The translations under genes and the position numbers were made by a program. Of a stretch of DNA of 64,000 nt, positions 5,358-57,008 are shown one piece after another (positions within the stretch are counted from its first letter, which is position 1; the number at the start of each line of letters is the position of its first letter). Under the pieces are notes generated by a model. It was not told where the DNA came from. It saw nothing but the letters and a program-made list of their open reading frames with translations, and did not search any database. The stretch is from Aurantimonas manganoxydans SI85-9A1 (GTDB taxonomy: Bacteria > Pseudomonadota > Alphaproteobacteria > Rhizobiales > Rhizobiaceae), in NCBI RefSeq assembly GCF_000153465.1, contig NZ_CH672387.1, forward strand, positions 1,868,046-1,932,045, in the 5' to 3' direction.

Positions 5358-5463
5358 GCTCGCCAGACGCGGCCGCACGTCCAGACTCGATAAGGGCTCG
5401 CGGCTTCGTGGTCGCGGGCACTCTCGGTGACCGCCTGTCTATACCCGGTTGAGTCTGGCGAGC
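5358..5463. repeat. Long inverted repeat between convergent ferredoxin and DUF922 genes
   Basis: GCTCGCCAGAC at 5358-5368 is matched perfectly by its reverse complement at 5453-5463, just outside the DUF922 stop codon. A second, competing partner, CCAGACTC at 5381-5388, can pair with GAGTCTGG at 5451-5458. There is no T-tract, so this is not a standard terminator. It may be an RNA structure protecting or ending convergent transcripts. Confidence 0.5.
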
Positions 5464-5465
5464 GA

Positions 5466-6071
5466 TCAGCGCCGGTAGTCGGACACGGCCCGGCTGAGCG
5501 CCCGGCGCAGGCGGAAATTGACCTCGCGCCCCTCGATGGTGTCAAACTCGACCTGGGCCCGCTCGTGGCCGGCCAGATAGCGCTGGGTCACCTGGTTGAC
5601 CAGCGCCTCCATCCGGGCGCAGCTCGGCTCGGGTCGCAGGTTGCGCAGCGCCATCTCCATGCGTTTCAGCCAGCTCTTGGCGATGTCCGCATGATGCTTC
5701 TCATGGCGCTCGATATCCGATTCCAGCGTTTGCCAGATCAGGATCGTCTCCGGCGCGACACCGCGGGGCGGCGCCCATTTCGGCAGAAGCATGTTGAGCG
5801 TCAACTTCACATTGGCCATGTCGACGGCGCAGCCTTCCGCGACCCGCTTGTAGGTGACGTGCCCGTCGAACTTCACCTCCGTCGCGCCGGGATGGCGTAG
5901 TCCGGTTTCAGCGACGAAGGGACCGCGGCGATTGAGATCGCGGTCGAGCTCAGCCAGCGTCGTGCCGCGGATGGCGAAGTAGCGCGTCGTCTCGTCCAGC
6001 GTCTCGGCCGTTGCCGACGCGCCCGCAAGGACGGCGAGGCCGGCCAGCAGCAAGATTGCCCTACGCGTCAT
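5466..6071 (-). CDS. DUF922 family secreted putative Zn-dependent protease
   Basis: A 201-residue protein with a signal peptide (RRAILLLAGLAVLAGASATA) and a motif H123-E124-K-H-H127 that fits the HExxH zinc-metalloprotease signature. This agrees with the DUF922 family, predicted periplasmic or secreted metalloproteases with no known substrate. The start at 6071 is chosen because it begins the signal peptide and has GAGGAAGAG just upstream. An upstream in-frame extension to 6326 would place non-coding-like residues before the signal peptide and would overlap the SOS-controlled micropeptide. The pairing of two Cys (about 81 and the C-terminal PSCAR) suggests a possible disulfide. Confidence 0.8.
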   Translation of the reverse strand: MTRRAILLLAGLAVLAGASATAETLDETTRYFAIRGTTLAELDRDLNRRGPFVAETGLRHPGATEVKFDGHVTYKRVAEGCAVDMANVKLTLNMLLPKWAPPRGVAPETILIWQTLESDIERHEKHHADIAKSWLKRMEMALRNLRPEPSCARMEALVNQVTQRYLAGHERAQVEFDTIEGREVNFRLRRALSRAVSDYRR

Positions 6072-6212
6072 CTCTTCCTCACCATGTCGAAGGTCGCCGT
6101 TCGTCCACGCTAACCGTTTGGCGCGGCGACACAAGTCTCCTGCCTGAAGGAGGGGCGCGACGGATGCACGCCCGTCGTTCCGTCCGGAAGGTTGACAATC
6201 TGGAACAAACGA

Positions 6213-6227
6213 GAACATATAAGGAAC
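6213..6227 (+). promoter_or_regulatory. LexA (SOS) box
   Basis: GAACATATAAGGAAC is an exact match to the alphaproteobacterial LexA operator GAAC-N7-GAAC. It lies just downstream of a TTGACA at 6192-6197, over the expected -10 region, and ends 21 bases before the 28-codon micropeptide start. An extra GAAC sits at 6203-6206 and another at 6231-6234, both out of the required spacing. The lexA promoter in this window carries the same kind of box (56994-57008). Confidence 0.85.
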
Positions 6228-6248
6228 ACAGAACATAGGAGGAACATC

Positions 6249-6335
6249 ATGCTCAATATCGCCAAGGACCTGTTGTCGCTCGCCGTCGTCTCCGGTTTCG
6301 TGTTCAGCCTCAGCCTTCTCGTTCACGTGGTGTAG
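6249..6335 (+). CDS. 28-residue single-span membrane micropeptide under SOS control
   Basis: ATG at 6249 to TAG at 6335 encodes 28 residues: a short amphipathic start (MLNIAKD), then a hydrophobic stretch (LLSLAVVSGFVFSLSLLV) long enough for one membrane span, ending in His-Val-Val. A perfect AGGAGG lies six bases before the ATG, and a consensus LexA box covers the promoter. Small size, SOS box and one span recall SidA of Caulobacter, a 29-residue SOS-induced inner-membrane inhibitor of the divisome. Homology is not shown, so the function is inferred from setting only. dnaE follows 160 bases later on the same strand. Confidence 0.75.
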   Translation: MLNIAKDLLSLAVVSGFVFSLSLLVHVV

Positions 6336-6448
6336 ACACCGCTTTCCTGTGCACCGTTGCGGGTCGGCGGTTCCCTCCGGCGGCCACTCGGCCTAGTCGT
6401 TGGGATGCCTTGACGGGGGGCGGCCCGATGGCCCTGCGCCGGGAGGCG

Positions 6449-6475
6449 GAGCCGGCCGCGGTGGATGGCCGGCTC
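6449..6475 (+). other. Hairpin in the dnaE leader
   Basis: GAGCCGGCC and GGCCGGCTC form a perfect 9-bp stem with a 9-base loop, ending 20 bases before the dnaE ATG. It has no T-tract, so it is more likely a leader structure than an intrinsic terminator. Its position would affect read-through from the SOS promoter or initiation of dnaE translation. Confidence 0.5.
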
Positions 6476-6495
6476 GGGAATGATGGAGCAGCAGC

Positions 6496-9400
6496 ATGGC
6501 GTCGGATACCAAACCTAAATTCGTCCATCTGCGGGTCCACAGCGCCTTCTCACTGCTCGAAGGCGCGCTGAAGCTCGACCAGATCATCAAGTTCGCGAAG
6601 GGCGACGACGCGCCGGCGATCGGCATCTGCGATACCAACAATCTGTTCGGCGCCCTGGAGTTTTCCGAGAAGGCGTCGAAGGCCGGCATCCAGCCGATCA
6701 CCGGCTGCCAGATCGACGTCGAGTTCTCCGATTGCGAGGAGAGCCGGGGCGGGCGCCGCGAACGAAGCCTGTCCTCGATCGCGCCGCTGGTGCTGATCGC
6801 GGCGACGGAAGCCGGATACGCCAATCTCGTGGAGATCGTCTCGCTCGCCTATCTCGGGCATGCCGACAATCCGCGCCCGCATGTGCTGTTCGAATGGCTG
6901 GAAACGCGGTCCGAGGGAATCATCGCCCTGACCGGCGGGCCGCTCGGTCCGATCGGCTCGGCGATCGCGGCGGATCGGTCCGATCTCGCCCGCAGCCGCA
7001 TGGAGCGGATGGCGCCGGTCTTCGGCGACCGGCTCTATGTCGAACTGCAACGCCACGAGGGACGCAGCCGCAAGGTCGAGGCCGACACGCTGCAACTCGC
7101 CTACGACATGGCGCTGCCGCTGGTGGCGACGAACGAGCCGTTCTTCCTGAAGGCCGATGATTTCGAAGCCCATGACGCCCTGATTGCCGTCGCCGGTAAC
7201 CGTCTGGTCAGCCAGGAGGATCGGCGCCGGCTGTCGCGCGACCACAGCCTGAAGTCCCAGAACGAGATGTCGGTCCTGTTCGCCGACCTTCCCGAAGCCC
7301 TGCACAACACGGTCGAGATCGCCCAGCGCTGCAGCTACCGGCCACGGACCCGCGCGCCGATCCTGCCGCGCTTTGCCGGCGCCGATGCGGACGCGGCGGA
7401 AGCCGAGGCGGCTGAGGTCGCCGAATTGCGGCGCCAGGCCATCGAGGGGCTGGAGGCGCGGCTTGCCGCGCATGGACTGGCACCCGGCGAAACCGCCGAA
7501 AGCTATCGTGAGCGGCTCGAATTCGAGCTGTCGATCATCGAGCGGATGAAGTTCCCGGGCTACTTCCTGATCGTTGCCGACTTCATCAAATGGGCCAAGG
7601 CGCAGGGCATTCCCGTCGGTCCCGGCCGTGGTTCGGGCGCGGGCTCGCTGGTCGCCTATGCGCTGACGGTCACCGACCTCGACCCGCTGCGCTTCTCGCT
7701 GCTGTTCGAGCGCTTCCTCAATCCCGAACGCGTGTCGATGCCCGACTTCGACATCGATTTCTGCCAGGACCGGCGCGAGGAGGTGATCCGCTACGTCCAG
7801 GAGAAATACGGGCGCGAGCAGGTCGGCCAGATCATCACCTTCGGAACGCTGCAGGCGCGCGCCGTGCTGCGCGACGTCGGCCGCGTCCTCGAAATGTCCT
7901 ACGGCCAGGTCGACAAGCTCTGCAAGCTGGTGCCGCAGAACCCGGCCAATCCGGTGACGCTGGCGCAGGCCCTGGTGGAAGAGCCGCGTCTTCAGGAGGC
8001 GCGCGAGAAGGAAGAGATCGTCGACCGGCTGATCTCGATCGCGCTGAAGCTCGAGGGGCTCTACCGCCACGCCTCGACCCATGCGGCGGGTATCGTGATC
8101 GGCGACCGGCCGCTGTCGCAACTCGTGCCGATGTACCGCGATCCGCGCTCGGACATGCCGGTCACCCAGTTCAACATGAAATGGGTCGAACCGGCCGGTC
8201 TGGTGAAGTTCGACTTCCTTGGCCTGAAGACCCTGACCGTGTTGCAGAAGGCGGTCGAACTGATCGCCCGCACCGGGCCGACCATCGATCTGTCGGCCAT
8301 CCCGCTGGATGATGCCAGGACCTACGAGATGATGACCCGCGGCGAGACCGTGGGCGTGTTCCAGGTGGAATCGGTCGGCATGCGCAAGGCGCTGATCGGC
8401 ATGCGCCCGGACCGGTTCGAGGACATCATCGCGCTGGTGGCGCTCTATCGGCCGGGCCCGATGGAGAACATTCCGACCTACAATGCGCGCAAGCACGGCG
8501 AGGAAGAGCCGGACTTCATCCACGACAAGATCGCGCCGATCCTGAAGGAGACCCAGGGCGTCATCATCTATCAGGAACAGGTGATGCAGATCGCCCAGGT
8601 CCTGTCGGGATACTCGCTCGGCGAAGCCGATCTCCTGCGCCGCGCCATGGGCAAGAAGATCCGCGCCGAGATGGACAAGCAGCGGGTCCGCTTCGTCGAG
8701 GGCGCGGTCGCCAACGGCCTCGACAAGACCCAGTCGAACATGATCTTCGACCTTCTGGCGAAGTTCGCCGACTACGGCTTCAACAAGAGCCACGCGGCCG
8801 CCTATGCGCTGGTCGCCTACCAGACGGCCTATCTGAAGGCGAACCACCCGGTCGAGTTCCTCGCCGCGTCGATGACGCTGGACGCGGGCAATACCGAAAA
8901 GCTCAACGATTTCCGCATGGACGCCATGCGGCTGGGCATCAAGATCGTGCCGCCGTCGGTGCAGACCTCGTTCCGGCAGTTCGAGGTCGGCGAGAACAAG
9001 ATCTTCTACGCGCTGGCCGCCATCAAGGGCGTCGGCGAGCAGGCGGTCGACCACATCGTGGCGACGCGGGGCGATGGCAGCTTCCAGTCGCTTGAGGATT
9101 TCTGCGCCCGCATCGACCCGAAGATCGTCAACAAGCGGACACTCGAATTCCTCATCGCCGCCGGCGCGCTGGACTGTTTCGGCCACGAGCGGGCGCTGCT
9201 GTGCGCCAATATCGACCTGATGGCGTCCTATGCCCTGCGGGTGCACGAAGGCCGCGCATCCGGCCAGCACGACATGTTCGGCGGGGCCGGCAGCGAGCCC
9301 GAGCCGCTGCATCTCAATCCCGCGCAACTCTGGACCTCGTCCGAAAAGCTGCTGCGCGAATTCCAGGCGATCGGCTTCTATCTCTCGGCGCATCCGCTCG

Positions 9401-9957
9401 ACGAGTACAAGACGACGCTGAAGCGTCTGCGGGTACAGACCCATGCTGAGGTGATCCATGCGGTCAAGCGCGGCGCCACCGCCGGCAAGCTGGCCGGGAC
9501 GGTGACCTCGCGCCAGGAGCGCAAGACCCGCAGCGGCGGCAAGCTCGGTATCATCCAGTTGTCCGATCCGAGCGGCCAGTACGAGGTCGTCTTGTTCTCC
9601 GAAGCGCTCTATGCCTTTCGCGACCAGCTCGAGCCGGGCTCCTCGGTGATCGTCGGCGTGTCGGCCGAGGAGCGACCGGAAGGGGTCTCGTTCCGCGTCC
9701 AGTCGGTGCAGTCGCTGGAGGACGAGGCCGTGCGCATGCAGAAGGCGCTGCGGGTGTTCATGCGGGACGCCAACCCGCTGCAGGCCTTCAGAAGCCAGTT
9801 GCGCGCCGACGGCGACAGCGAGATTTCGCTGGTTCTGGTCCGCGACGGCGGCGAACGGGAGGTGGAGATCACGCTGCCAGGCCGCTACCGGGTCTCGCCG
9901 CAGATGGCGAGTGTGGTGAAGGCGGCGCCCGGCGTCCTCGACGTCGAGCTTCTATAG
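6496..9957 (+). CDS. dnaE: DNA polymerase III alpha subunit, replicative type (DnaE1)
   Basis: The 1153-residue catalytic subunit of the replicative polymerase. The N-terminal PHP domain (HLRVHSAFSLLEG) is followed by the C-family polymerase core. The catalytic acidic residues are in PDFDIDF (D417, D419) and KFDFLGL (D573). The beta-clamp-binding motif QHDMFG is at about 924-929, and a C-terminal OB-fold (GTVTSRQERKT region) follows. Length, N-terminus and the OB-fold fit DnaE1, not the shorter error-prone DnaE2/ImuC. It lies downstream of the SOS-controlled micropeptide with no clear terminator between, so partial SOS co-transcription is possible but unproven. Confidence 0.97.
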   Translation: MASDTKPKFVHLRVHSAFSLLEGALKLDQIIKFAKGDDAPAIGICDTNNLFGALEFSEKASKAGIQPITGCQIDVEFSDCEESRGGRRERSLSSIAPLVLIAATEAGYANLVEIVSLAYLGHADNPRPHVLFEWLETRSEGIIALTGGPLGPIGSAIAADRSDLARSRMERMAPVFGDRLYVELQRHEGRSRKVEADTLQLAYDMALPLVATNEPFFLKADDFEAHDALIAVAGNRLVSQEDRRRLSRDHSLKSQNEMSVLFADLPEALHNTVEIAQRCSYRPRTRAPILPRFAGADADAAEAEAAEVAELRRQAIEGLEARLAAHGLAPGETAESYRERLEFELSIIERMKFPGYFLIVADFIKWAKAQGIPVGPGRGSGAGSLVAYALTVTDLDPLRFSLLFERFLNPERVSMPDFDIDFCQDRREEVIRYVQEKYGREQVGQIITFGTLQARAVLRDVGRVLEMSYGQVDKLCKLVPQNPANPVTLAQALVEEPRLQEAREKEEIVDRLISIALKLEGLYRHASTHAAGIVIGDRPLSQLVPMYRDPRSDMPVTQFNMKWVEPAGLVKFDFLGLKTLTVLQKAVELIARTGPTIDLSAIPLDDARTYEMMTRGETVGVFQVESVGMRKALIGMRPDRFEDIIALVALYRPGPMENIPTYNARKHGEEEPDFIHDKIAPILKETQGVIIYQEQVMQIAQVLSGYSLGEADLLRRAMGKKIRAEMDKQRVRFVEGAVANGLDKTQSNMIFDLLAKFADYGFNKSHAAAYALVAYQTAYLKANHPVEFLAASMTLDAGNTEKLNDFRMDAMRLGIKIVPPSVQTSFRQFEVGENKIFYALAAIKGVGEQAVDHIVATRGDGSFQSLEDFCARIDPKIVNKRTLEFLIAAGALDCFGHERALLCANIDLMASYALRVHEGRASGQHDMFGGAGSEPEPLHLNPAQLWTSSEKLLREFQAIGFYLSAHPLDEYKTTLKRLRVQTHAEVIHAVKRGATAGKLAGTVTSRQERKTRSGGKLGIIQLSDPSGQYEVVLFSEALYAFRDQLEPGSSVIVGVSAEERPEGVSFRVQSVQSLEDEAVRMQKALRVFMRDANPLQAFRSQLRADGDSEISLVLVRDGGEREVEITLPGRYRVSPQMASVVKAAPGVLDVELL

Positions 9958-56233: not shown

Positions 56234-56953
56234 TCAGTAGCGGCGGATCAGGCCGATCAGCTTGCCCTGGACCTTGACCCGGTCCGAGCCGAAGATCCGG
56301 GTTTCGTAGGCCGGGTTGGCCGCCTCCAGCGCGATGGTATCGCCGCGACGGCGGAAGCGCTTCAGGGTCGCTTCTTCGTCGTCGACGAGCGCGACCACGA
56401 TCTCGCCCGGCGTCGCCGTGTCGCCCCGGCGGATGACCACGGTGTCACCGTCGAGAATGCCCGCCTCGATCATTGAATCGCCCTTCACTTCGAGGGCGTA
56501 GTGCTCGCCGCTGCCCAGCATGTCCGGCGGAACGACGATGGAATGGGTGTTGTGCTGGATGGCCGAGATCGGCACGCCGGCGGCGATGCGCCCCATGACC
56601 GGAATGGCCGTCGAGGCGGACGCCTTGGCCGGCGACGGCTGCGACGCAGGGGCTGGACGGGCGGTGTCGCGACTGCCTTCGATCACACTCGGCTTGAAGC
56701 CGGTGCGCCCGACGGGGGCCGGGCGGTTGCCCTGGATCGATTCAGGAAGTTTCAGGATTTCCAGTGCGCGGGCACGATTGGGCAGGCGGCGGATGAAGCC
56801 CCGTTCCTCGAGCGCGGTGATCAGGCGGTGAATGCCGGACTTGGACCGCAGATCCAGCGCGTCCTTCATTTCATCGAAGGACGGGGGCACACCAGTCTCG
56901 CGCACCCGATCGTTCACGAAGACCAGAAGATCGTGCTGCTTGCGCGTCAGCAT
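56234..56953 (-). CDS. lexA: SOS repressor LexA
   Basis: 239 residues. A winged helix-turn-helix ([20 protein letters not shown] and [18 protein letters not shown]) is followed by the self-cleaving S24 peptidase domain. The scissile Ala125-Gly126 is in MGRIAAGVP, Ser160 in KGDSMIEAG, and Lys198 in EATLKRF. The long linker (about 70-115) is typical of alphaproteobacteria. GAGGAG precedes the ATG, and an SOS box lies upstream, so it regulates itself. Confidence 0.97.
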
Positions 56954-56993
56954 CCGGGCGACTCCTCAAAACAAAACCTGAACAAACCTATCT

Positions 56994-57008
56994 GTTCTAG
57001 TTGTGTTC
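56994..57008 (-). promoter_or_regulatory. LexA box of the lexA promoter
   Basis: On the minus strand this is GAACACAACTAGAAC, an exact GAAC-N7-GAAC match, ending 41 bases before the lexA ATG. It sits between TTGCGG and TAGGTT, which are 17 bases apart and fit -35 and -10. The box overlaps the last codon and stop of moeA. Confidence 0.93.

Follow-up and report, generated by a model that had tools for sequence, protein, structure and literature searches.

A 28-codon gene preceded by LexA-type boxes upstream of dnaE1 in Aurantimonas manganoxydans, a probable divergent orthologue of Caulobacter sidA

Structure of the locus upstream of dnaE1

The window analysed in this study is a 64,000-nt stretch of the genome of Aurantimonas manganoxydans SI85-9A1. 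It contains a sidA-like gene of 28 codons plus a stop codon (MLNIAKDLLSLAVVSGFVFSLSLLVHVV; 6249 to 6335, plus strand), which sits between a minus-strand DUF922 gene and dnaE1. The product has one predicted membrane span with a maximum 19-residue hydropathy of 2.16 (2.06 for SidA), in agreement with the initial annotation, which had read the frame as a 28-residue membrane micropeptide. The dnaE1 gene for the DNA polymerase III alpha subunit (6496 to 9957, plus strand; NF004226, 1479.7 bits, cut-off 1002) starts 160 bp 3' of the peptide frame on the same strand and is a syntenic neighbour and a separate gene; dnaE was found in 25 of 31 homologue loci tested. The window DnaE is 99.6% identical to the DnaE of A. 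coralicida DSM 14790 across 946 residues.

On the plus strand, a probable -35 element, TTGACA (6192 to 6197), is followed by an exact GAACN7GAAC box (GAACATATAAGGAAC; box 1, 6213 to 6227), both of them where the initial annotation had placed them; that annotation had overlooked a second exact box (GAACATAGGAGGAAC; box 2, 6231 to 6245), which lies 18 bp from the first. The AGGAGG ribosome-binding site (6237 to 6242), which had also been read correctly, is located inside box 2, six bases before the ATG. A promoter scan returned no consensus -10 element at 16 to 18 nt from TTGACA. The association of the -35-like motif with the box recurs elsewhere: TTGAC is present at most 45 nt upstream of the box in 62 of 90 exact-box loci, and the reversed control CAGTT in 2 of 90. 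Within the Aurantimonas group, 5 other loci share the 18-bp tandem spacing, as do 3 loci of Caulobacter's family. At 6203 to 6216, an extra GAAC half-site precedes box 1 with a gap of six bases where a box has seven; what survives here may be a vestige of an ancestral box at the more usual site behind TTGAC.

The boxes have counterparts at SOS-type genes of the same genome. GAACN7GAAC precedes lexA, the divergent uvrA/ssb pair, dinB and an imuA-like gene; the dinB match exceeds the curated cut-off, the ImuA-like gene falls below its cut-off, and the uvrA piece is cut by the end of the stretch. The same motif on the opposite strand, GTTCN7GTTC, is the motif given for Caulobacter in PMC12700426. 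The boxes inspected comprised 20 stretches picked by eye, many of them for AT-rich boxes, and three further window boxes, and at the remaining boxes no SOS-type gene was recognised by eye (one stretch was scanned). Genome-wide, the motif has 110 occurrences and the reversed pattern 41. The window holds 5 exact boxes, compared with a shuffle mean of 1.48 (3 of 100 shuffles reached 5); two precede the peptide frame and one precedes lexA. Elsewhere in the genome, near 3297624 (L249), a glycosyltransferase-like frame of 178 residues with a weak NCBIfam match, possibly a further SOS gene, begins about 50 nt after GAACAAGACAAGAAC.

The lexA gene, which presumably encodes the repressor (56234 to 56953, minus strand; TIGR00498, 185 bits, cut-off 110.95), has its own box (GAACACAACTAGAAC; 56994 to 57008, minus strand), so that gene and box together extend from 56234 to 57008, about 50 kb from the peptide gene. 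A table in PMC1839093 gives Caulobacter lexA as CC1902 and dnaE1 as CC1926. Because of this numbering and the distance in the window, the lexA and peptide/dnaE1 loci may be anciently linked.

Conservation of the frame and relation to SidA

The frame was compared across 14 sequences: that of the window, 11 records from Aurantimonas, Jiella and Fulvimarina, and two from further genomes. All 14 retain 28 codons and are free of indels; pairwise differences average 7.7, 3.8 and 12.7 of 27 sites at codon positions 1, 2 and 3. An intact frame with change biased to third codon positions is what marks a protein-coding gene. One or more exact boxes occur within 62 nt 5' of the ATG in 14/14, and two boxes 18 bp apart are present in 6/14. 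Direct peptide matching recovered the frame in all 8 genomes of the genus searched (the own genome included) and in 3 of 28 other genomes of the family; conservation in close relatives, which the initial annotation had itself proposed as a check, is thus borne out in the genus. A twelfth match, in a genome of another family (G042, locus L012), was rejected as spurious (E = 0.249, an internal stop and no box).

Caulobacter sidA is designated CCNA_02004 in a preprint (PMC10769358). Its product is described as a peptide of the inner membrane that is induced in the SOS response, interacts with FtsW and blocks division but not Z-ring formation (PMC4211646, PMC13396833). Caulobacter genomes were located via CtrA, and the region upstream of dnaE1 was read in 30 genomes of Caulobacter's order, 28 of them in Caulobacter's family. 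An exact box lies on the dnaE strand in 20 of the 30 and is followed in every case by a small membrane frame. The frame upstream of dnaE1 in the Caulobacter genome G726, which also follows such a box, encodes 29 residues and is identified as SidA because it matches the curated model NF033228 with 72.3 bits (cut-off 35). Several SidA-like frames of Caulobacter's family (L131, L133, L139-L143, L148 and L149) have no exact upstream GAACN7GAAC box and may possess degenerate operators.

The window peptide aligns with the G726 SidA without gaps, with 9 of 28 residues identical, and with the SidA-like frame of another genus of Caulobacter's family (L131) the figure is 12 of 28. Residues [DE]7, [SA]10 and F17 are common to the window peptide and SidA. 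An hhalign comparison with SidA of Caulobacter's family gave a probability of 94.3% and an E-value of 1e-7 over 20 ungapped columns. Among the 1216 stop-to-stop segments, the window frame ranked first with two Aurantimonas-free profiles, one from Caulobacter's family (E = 0.034) and one from dnaE1-upstream frames of other genera of the window's order (E = 0.031). The latter was built from 42 of 45 box-anchored frames, hand-trimmed to an internal Met, after removal of two near copies (L178 and L237) and one frame that was not alike (L179). The statistics for so short a peptide are weak, with window-wide E-values of about 0.03, and a search of the complete own genome with the Caulobacter-family profile missed the window frame at E ≤ 10.

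The curated model does not reach this peptide. NF033228 gave no match to the window peptide, none in the own genome at E ≤ 1, and none over the cut-off in the 160 genomes of the window's order, while 1 of 14 control genomes was over it. At E ≤ 10, it matched 7 of 39 members of the peptide family, a set in which six of the 39 come from Caulobacter's family. NCBIfam likewise gave matches far below cut-off for 2 of 4 close homologues and none for the window peptide, and Pfam holds no family for four window-type peptides or four others. The peptide therefore falls outside the SidA family as NCBI defines it. The assignment to SidA is supported by register, locus and operator taken together, all read from sequence, and the proposal of a SidA-type peptide, which had been based on size and topology, gains from the sequence register, the dnaE1 locus and the LexA-type boxes. 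The idea of a new inhibitor stands only in part: the gene is outside the curated model, but appears to be the sidA orthologue itself in diverged form.

Distribution in the family, order and class

The family and order names used above the genus for the surveyed genomes, Aurantimonadaceae among them, are ones that we take to apply. A family profile drew on the Aurantimonas group and on a small number of further members, picked in part for having a box. At E ≤ 0.05, it matched 171 of 199 genomes in the window's family (95 of 109 genera), where about 10 genomes would be expected by chance. The 85 loci examined were all of the matches at E ≤ 2.6e-4, and at least 3 of them had supplied the profile. 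An exact box lies within 110 nt in 80/85 and one with at most one mismatch in 85/85, as opposed to 0/85 for the reversed control. F17 does not vary among the 75 different members of 28 residues; position 7 holds D in 74 of them and E in the remaining one, and every one has S or A at position 10. In a phylum draw of 200 searched with the family profile (A6), 7 matches outside the family were obtained at E ≤ 0.05 and none below 0.005. Since this is chance level, the family profile alone does not extend to other families.

The members of the window's family vary in arrangement. One large branch (L265-L270, L272, L274-L280 and L284-L289) shows no dnaE in the stretch read and keeps both box and frame; its members mostly carry Q6-D7, as in MTDLVQDVVSLVCMSTFLISMAMWIGAL. 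Many family members (L265, L267, L272, L279, L280 and others) have overlapping exact boxes 11 bp apart, with three GAAC half-sites at an 11-bp period, in contrast to the 18-bp tandem of Aurantimonas. Locus L050 lies close to frames named by eye as lipB-like and lolC-like. Six small genomes (1.1 to 1.5 Mb; G013, G199, G783, G811, G827 and G845) gave no family-profile match, as if the division brake had been lost with genome reduction, but a match is missing from 28 of the 199 genomes in all, several of which measure 3.5 to 4.9 Mb.

In the wider order, a dnaE match was present in 153 genomes, and up to 700 nt upstream of dnaE1 was read in 89 of these, a non-random set drawn mostly from the top DnaE scorers; fewer than 700 nt were readable in two of them (L162 and L195). 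An exact box was found on the dnaE strand in 49/89 and on the other strand in 11/89, and the reversed patterns in 1/89 and 3/89, respectively. After the box, a short hydrophobic frame was scored in 45 of the 49 by the criterion of the script, as a raw count. With 5-fold cross-validation, in which sister genomes leak between folds, a SidA-like frame was detected at E ≤ 0.1 on the dnaE strand in 50 of the 89 genomes and on the opposite strand in 2. An exact box accompanies the frame in 44 of the 50; a box alone occurs in 5 genomes and neither feature in 34. The boxes that lack a SidA-like frame by this test are at L164, L179, L210, L211 and L220; L210 and L220 have 24-residue frames (..CALL..), which may constitute a further branch.

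The order profile recognised frames at 26 of the 30 loci of Caulobacter's order (E < 0.005). Elsewhere in the class, 40 genomes were chosen from among those with at least two dnaE-type genes out of 142 searched (only 199 nt being available for L090), and box plus frame were present in 7/40, a box on the other strand in 4/40 and the reversed control in 1/40. A profile built from a single group (A3) and run over 397 genomes of the order gave strong matches only in the own genome (G000) and in G027, and its weak matches looked real only where they were backed by a box.

From these surveys, we consider it likely that SidA-type peptides form, beyond Caulobacter, an SOS division checkpoint that is ancestral in much of Alphaproteobacteria. 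By the same reading, they would be fast-diverging LexA-controlled membrane peptides of about 28 to 40 residues, present in the majority of genomes in the window's family and frequently next to dnaE1; one large branch would have relocated them along with the box, and the curated model would overlook them. The window gene is genuine and of a kind that is already known; the interesting part is the wide distribution that the curated model misses. Among the literature matches listed, no title or abstract dealt with SidA outside Caulobacter, nor with division arrest by a SidA peptide after DNA damage in non-Caulobacter Alphaproteobacteria; key subscription papers lie outside that scope, and the negative is no proof of novelty.

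Proposed function and comparison with known systems

Our preferred reading makes the frame an orthologue of Caulobacter sidA that has diverged, is repressed by LexA and most likely acts by holding FtsW inactive; we assign this reading a probability of about 0.8. The proximity of dnaE1, which lies immediately downstream on the same strand, raises the alternative that the boxes drive damage induction of dnaE1, the short frame being a leader peptide or incidental. A terminator scan 3' of the frame gave one weak match, and the folding energies after the frame in the 14 sequences are mostly not beyond those of shuffles, so that read-through into dnaE1 is possible. This alternative is nevertheless highly improbable. 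In the family-wide set of 85 loci, reading of at least 1300 nt downstream revealed no dnaE in 41, and an exact box is kept in 40 of these 41, as it is in 40 of the 44 loci with dnaE. Related genomes in these counts are not independent, which makes the Fisher values for them too small. Retention of the box where dnaE is absent indicates that the operator belongs to the peptide and is the strongest argument against the dnaE-promoter explanation, which also leaves aside the conserved amino-acid sequence of the frame in the 14 sequences and the match of the Caulobacter frame at the same place to the curated SidA model. As for a chance open frame beside a chance box, the motif is frequent enough in the genome for the thought to arise, but frame and box are both conserved, and the reading is refuted.

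An SOS-induced membrane micropeptide with another action, either a depolariser of the TisB/DinQ type or a regulator of another membrane protein, has more in its favour and is still unlikely. TisB and DinQ of E. coli are LexA-controlled single-span peptides with a length similar to that of the window peptide, and they belong to the same size and topology class. Moreover, the window peptide and SidA diverge over the C-terminal half, Trp19 included; this divergence and the loss of Trp19 leave room for another target. However, the register, locus and operator of the window frame all match SidA, and a strong ribosome-binding site directly precedes the ATG. TisB is under antisense RNA control, as is described for DinQ, and Rfam yielded nothing relevant at 5400 to 7000, where a single chance-level match lay downstream; RNAs that have yet to be described would escape such a search.

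For the divergent sidA orthologue, the following sequence of events is proposed. LexA bound to the two tandem operators would silence the promoter in undamaged cells. RecA-triggered cleavage of LexA is the established SOS pathway, and DNA damage would, through active RecA and LexA cleavage, release the peptide promoter. The short leader with AGGAGG would then be translated at once because of its strong ribosome-binding site, and the 28-residue peptide is predicted to insert into the inner membrane. There, it would most likely bind the septal peptidoglycan synthase FtsW (in the FtsW/I/N complex) and keep it inactive, so that division would be halted during DNA repair. For Caulobacter SidA, TM7 is the site predicted in PMC13396833, at low confidence. 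The locus offers a concrete small gene that can be deleted or expressed across many genera. Dozens of diverged natural sequences expose the constraint on the peptide ([DE]7, [SA]10 and F17) and could serve to map its contact with FtsW, and a regulon gene that was overlooked because of its short length now becomes visible.

Other small inhibitors of division resemble the window peptide to differing degrees. DidA is described as a damage-induced one-span division inhibitor of 71 residues that is SOS-independent (DriD) and interacts with FtsN (PMC4211646). It is alike in being small and in having one span and different in its length and SOS independence, as against 28 residues and LexA-type boxes in the window. 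YneA, SosA and ChiZ are longer proteins of other lineages and are set apart from the window peptide by their descriptions. They are presented as SOS-induced small membrane inhibitors, with YneA acting on FtsW (PMC13396833). SidA itself differs in having W at position 19, where the window peptide has F, and in extending one residue further at the C-terminus; the C-terminal halves of the two diverge. Upstream, the window frame has a tandem pair of boxes with 18-bp spacing, of which the second covers the ribosome-binding site, whereas the Caulobacter locus L125 has one exact box. In other respects, the two agree: 28 residues in the window peptide and 29 in SidA with one span, the pattern [RK][DE]..[SA][LF].....F in register, a LexA-type box, and dnaE1 downstream on the same strand.
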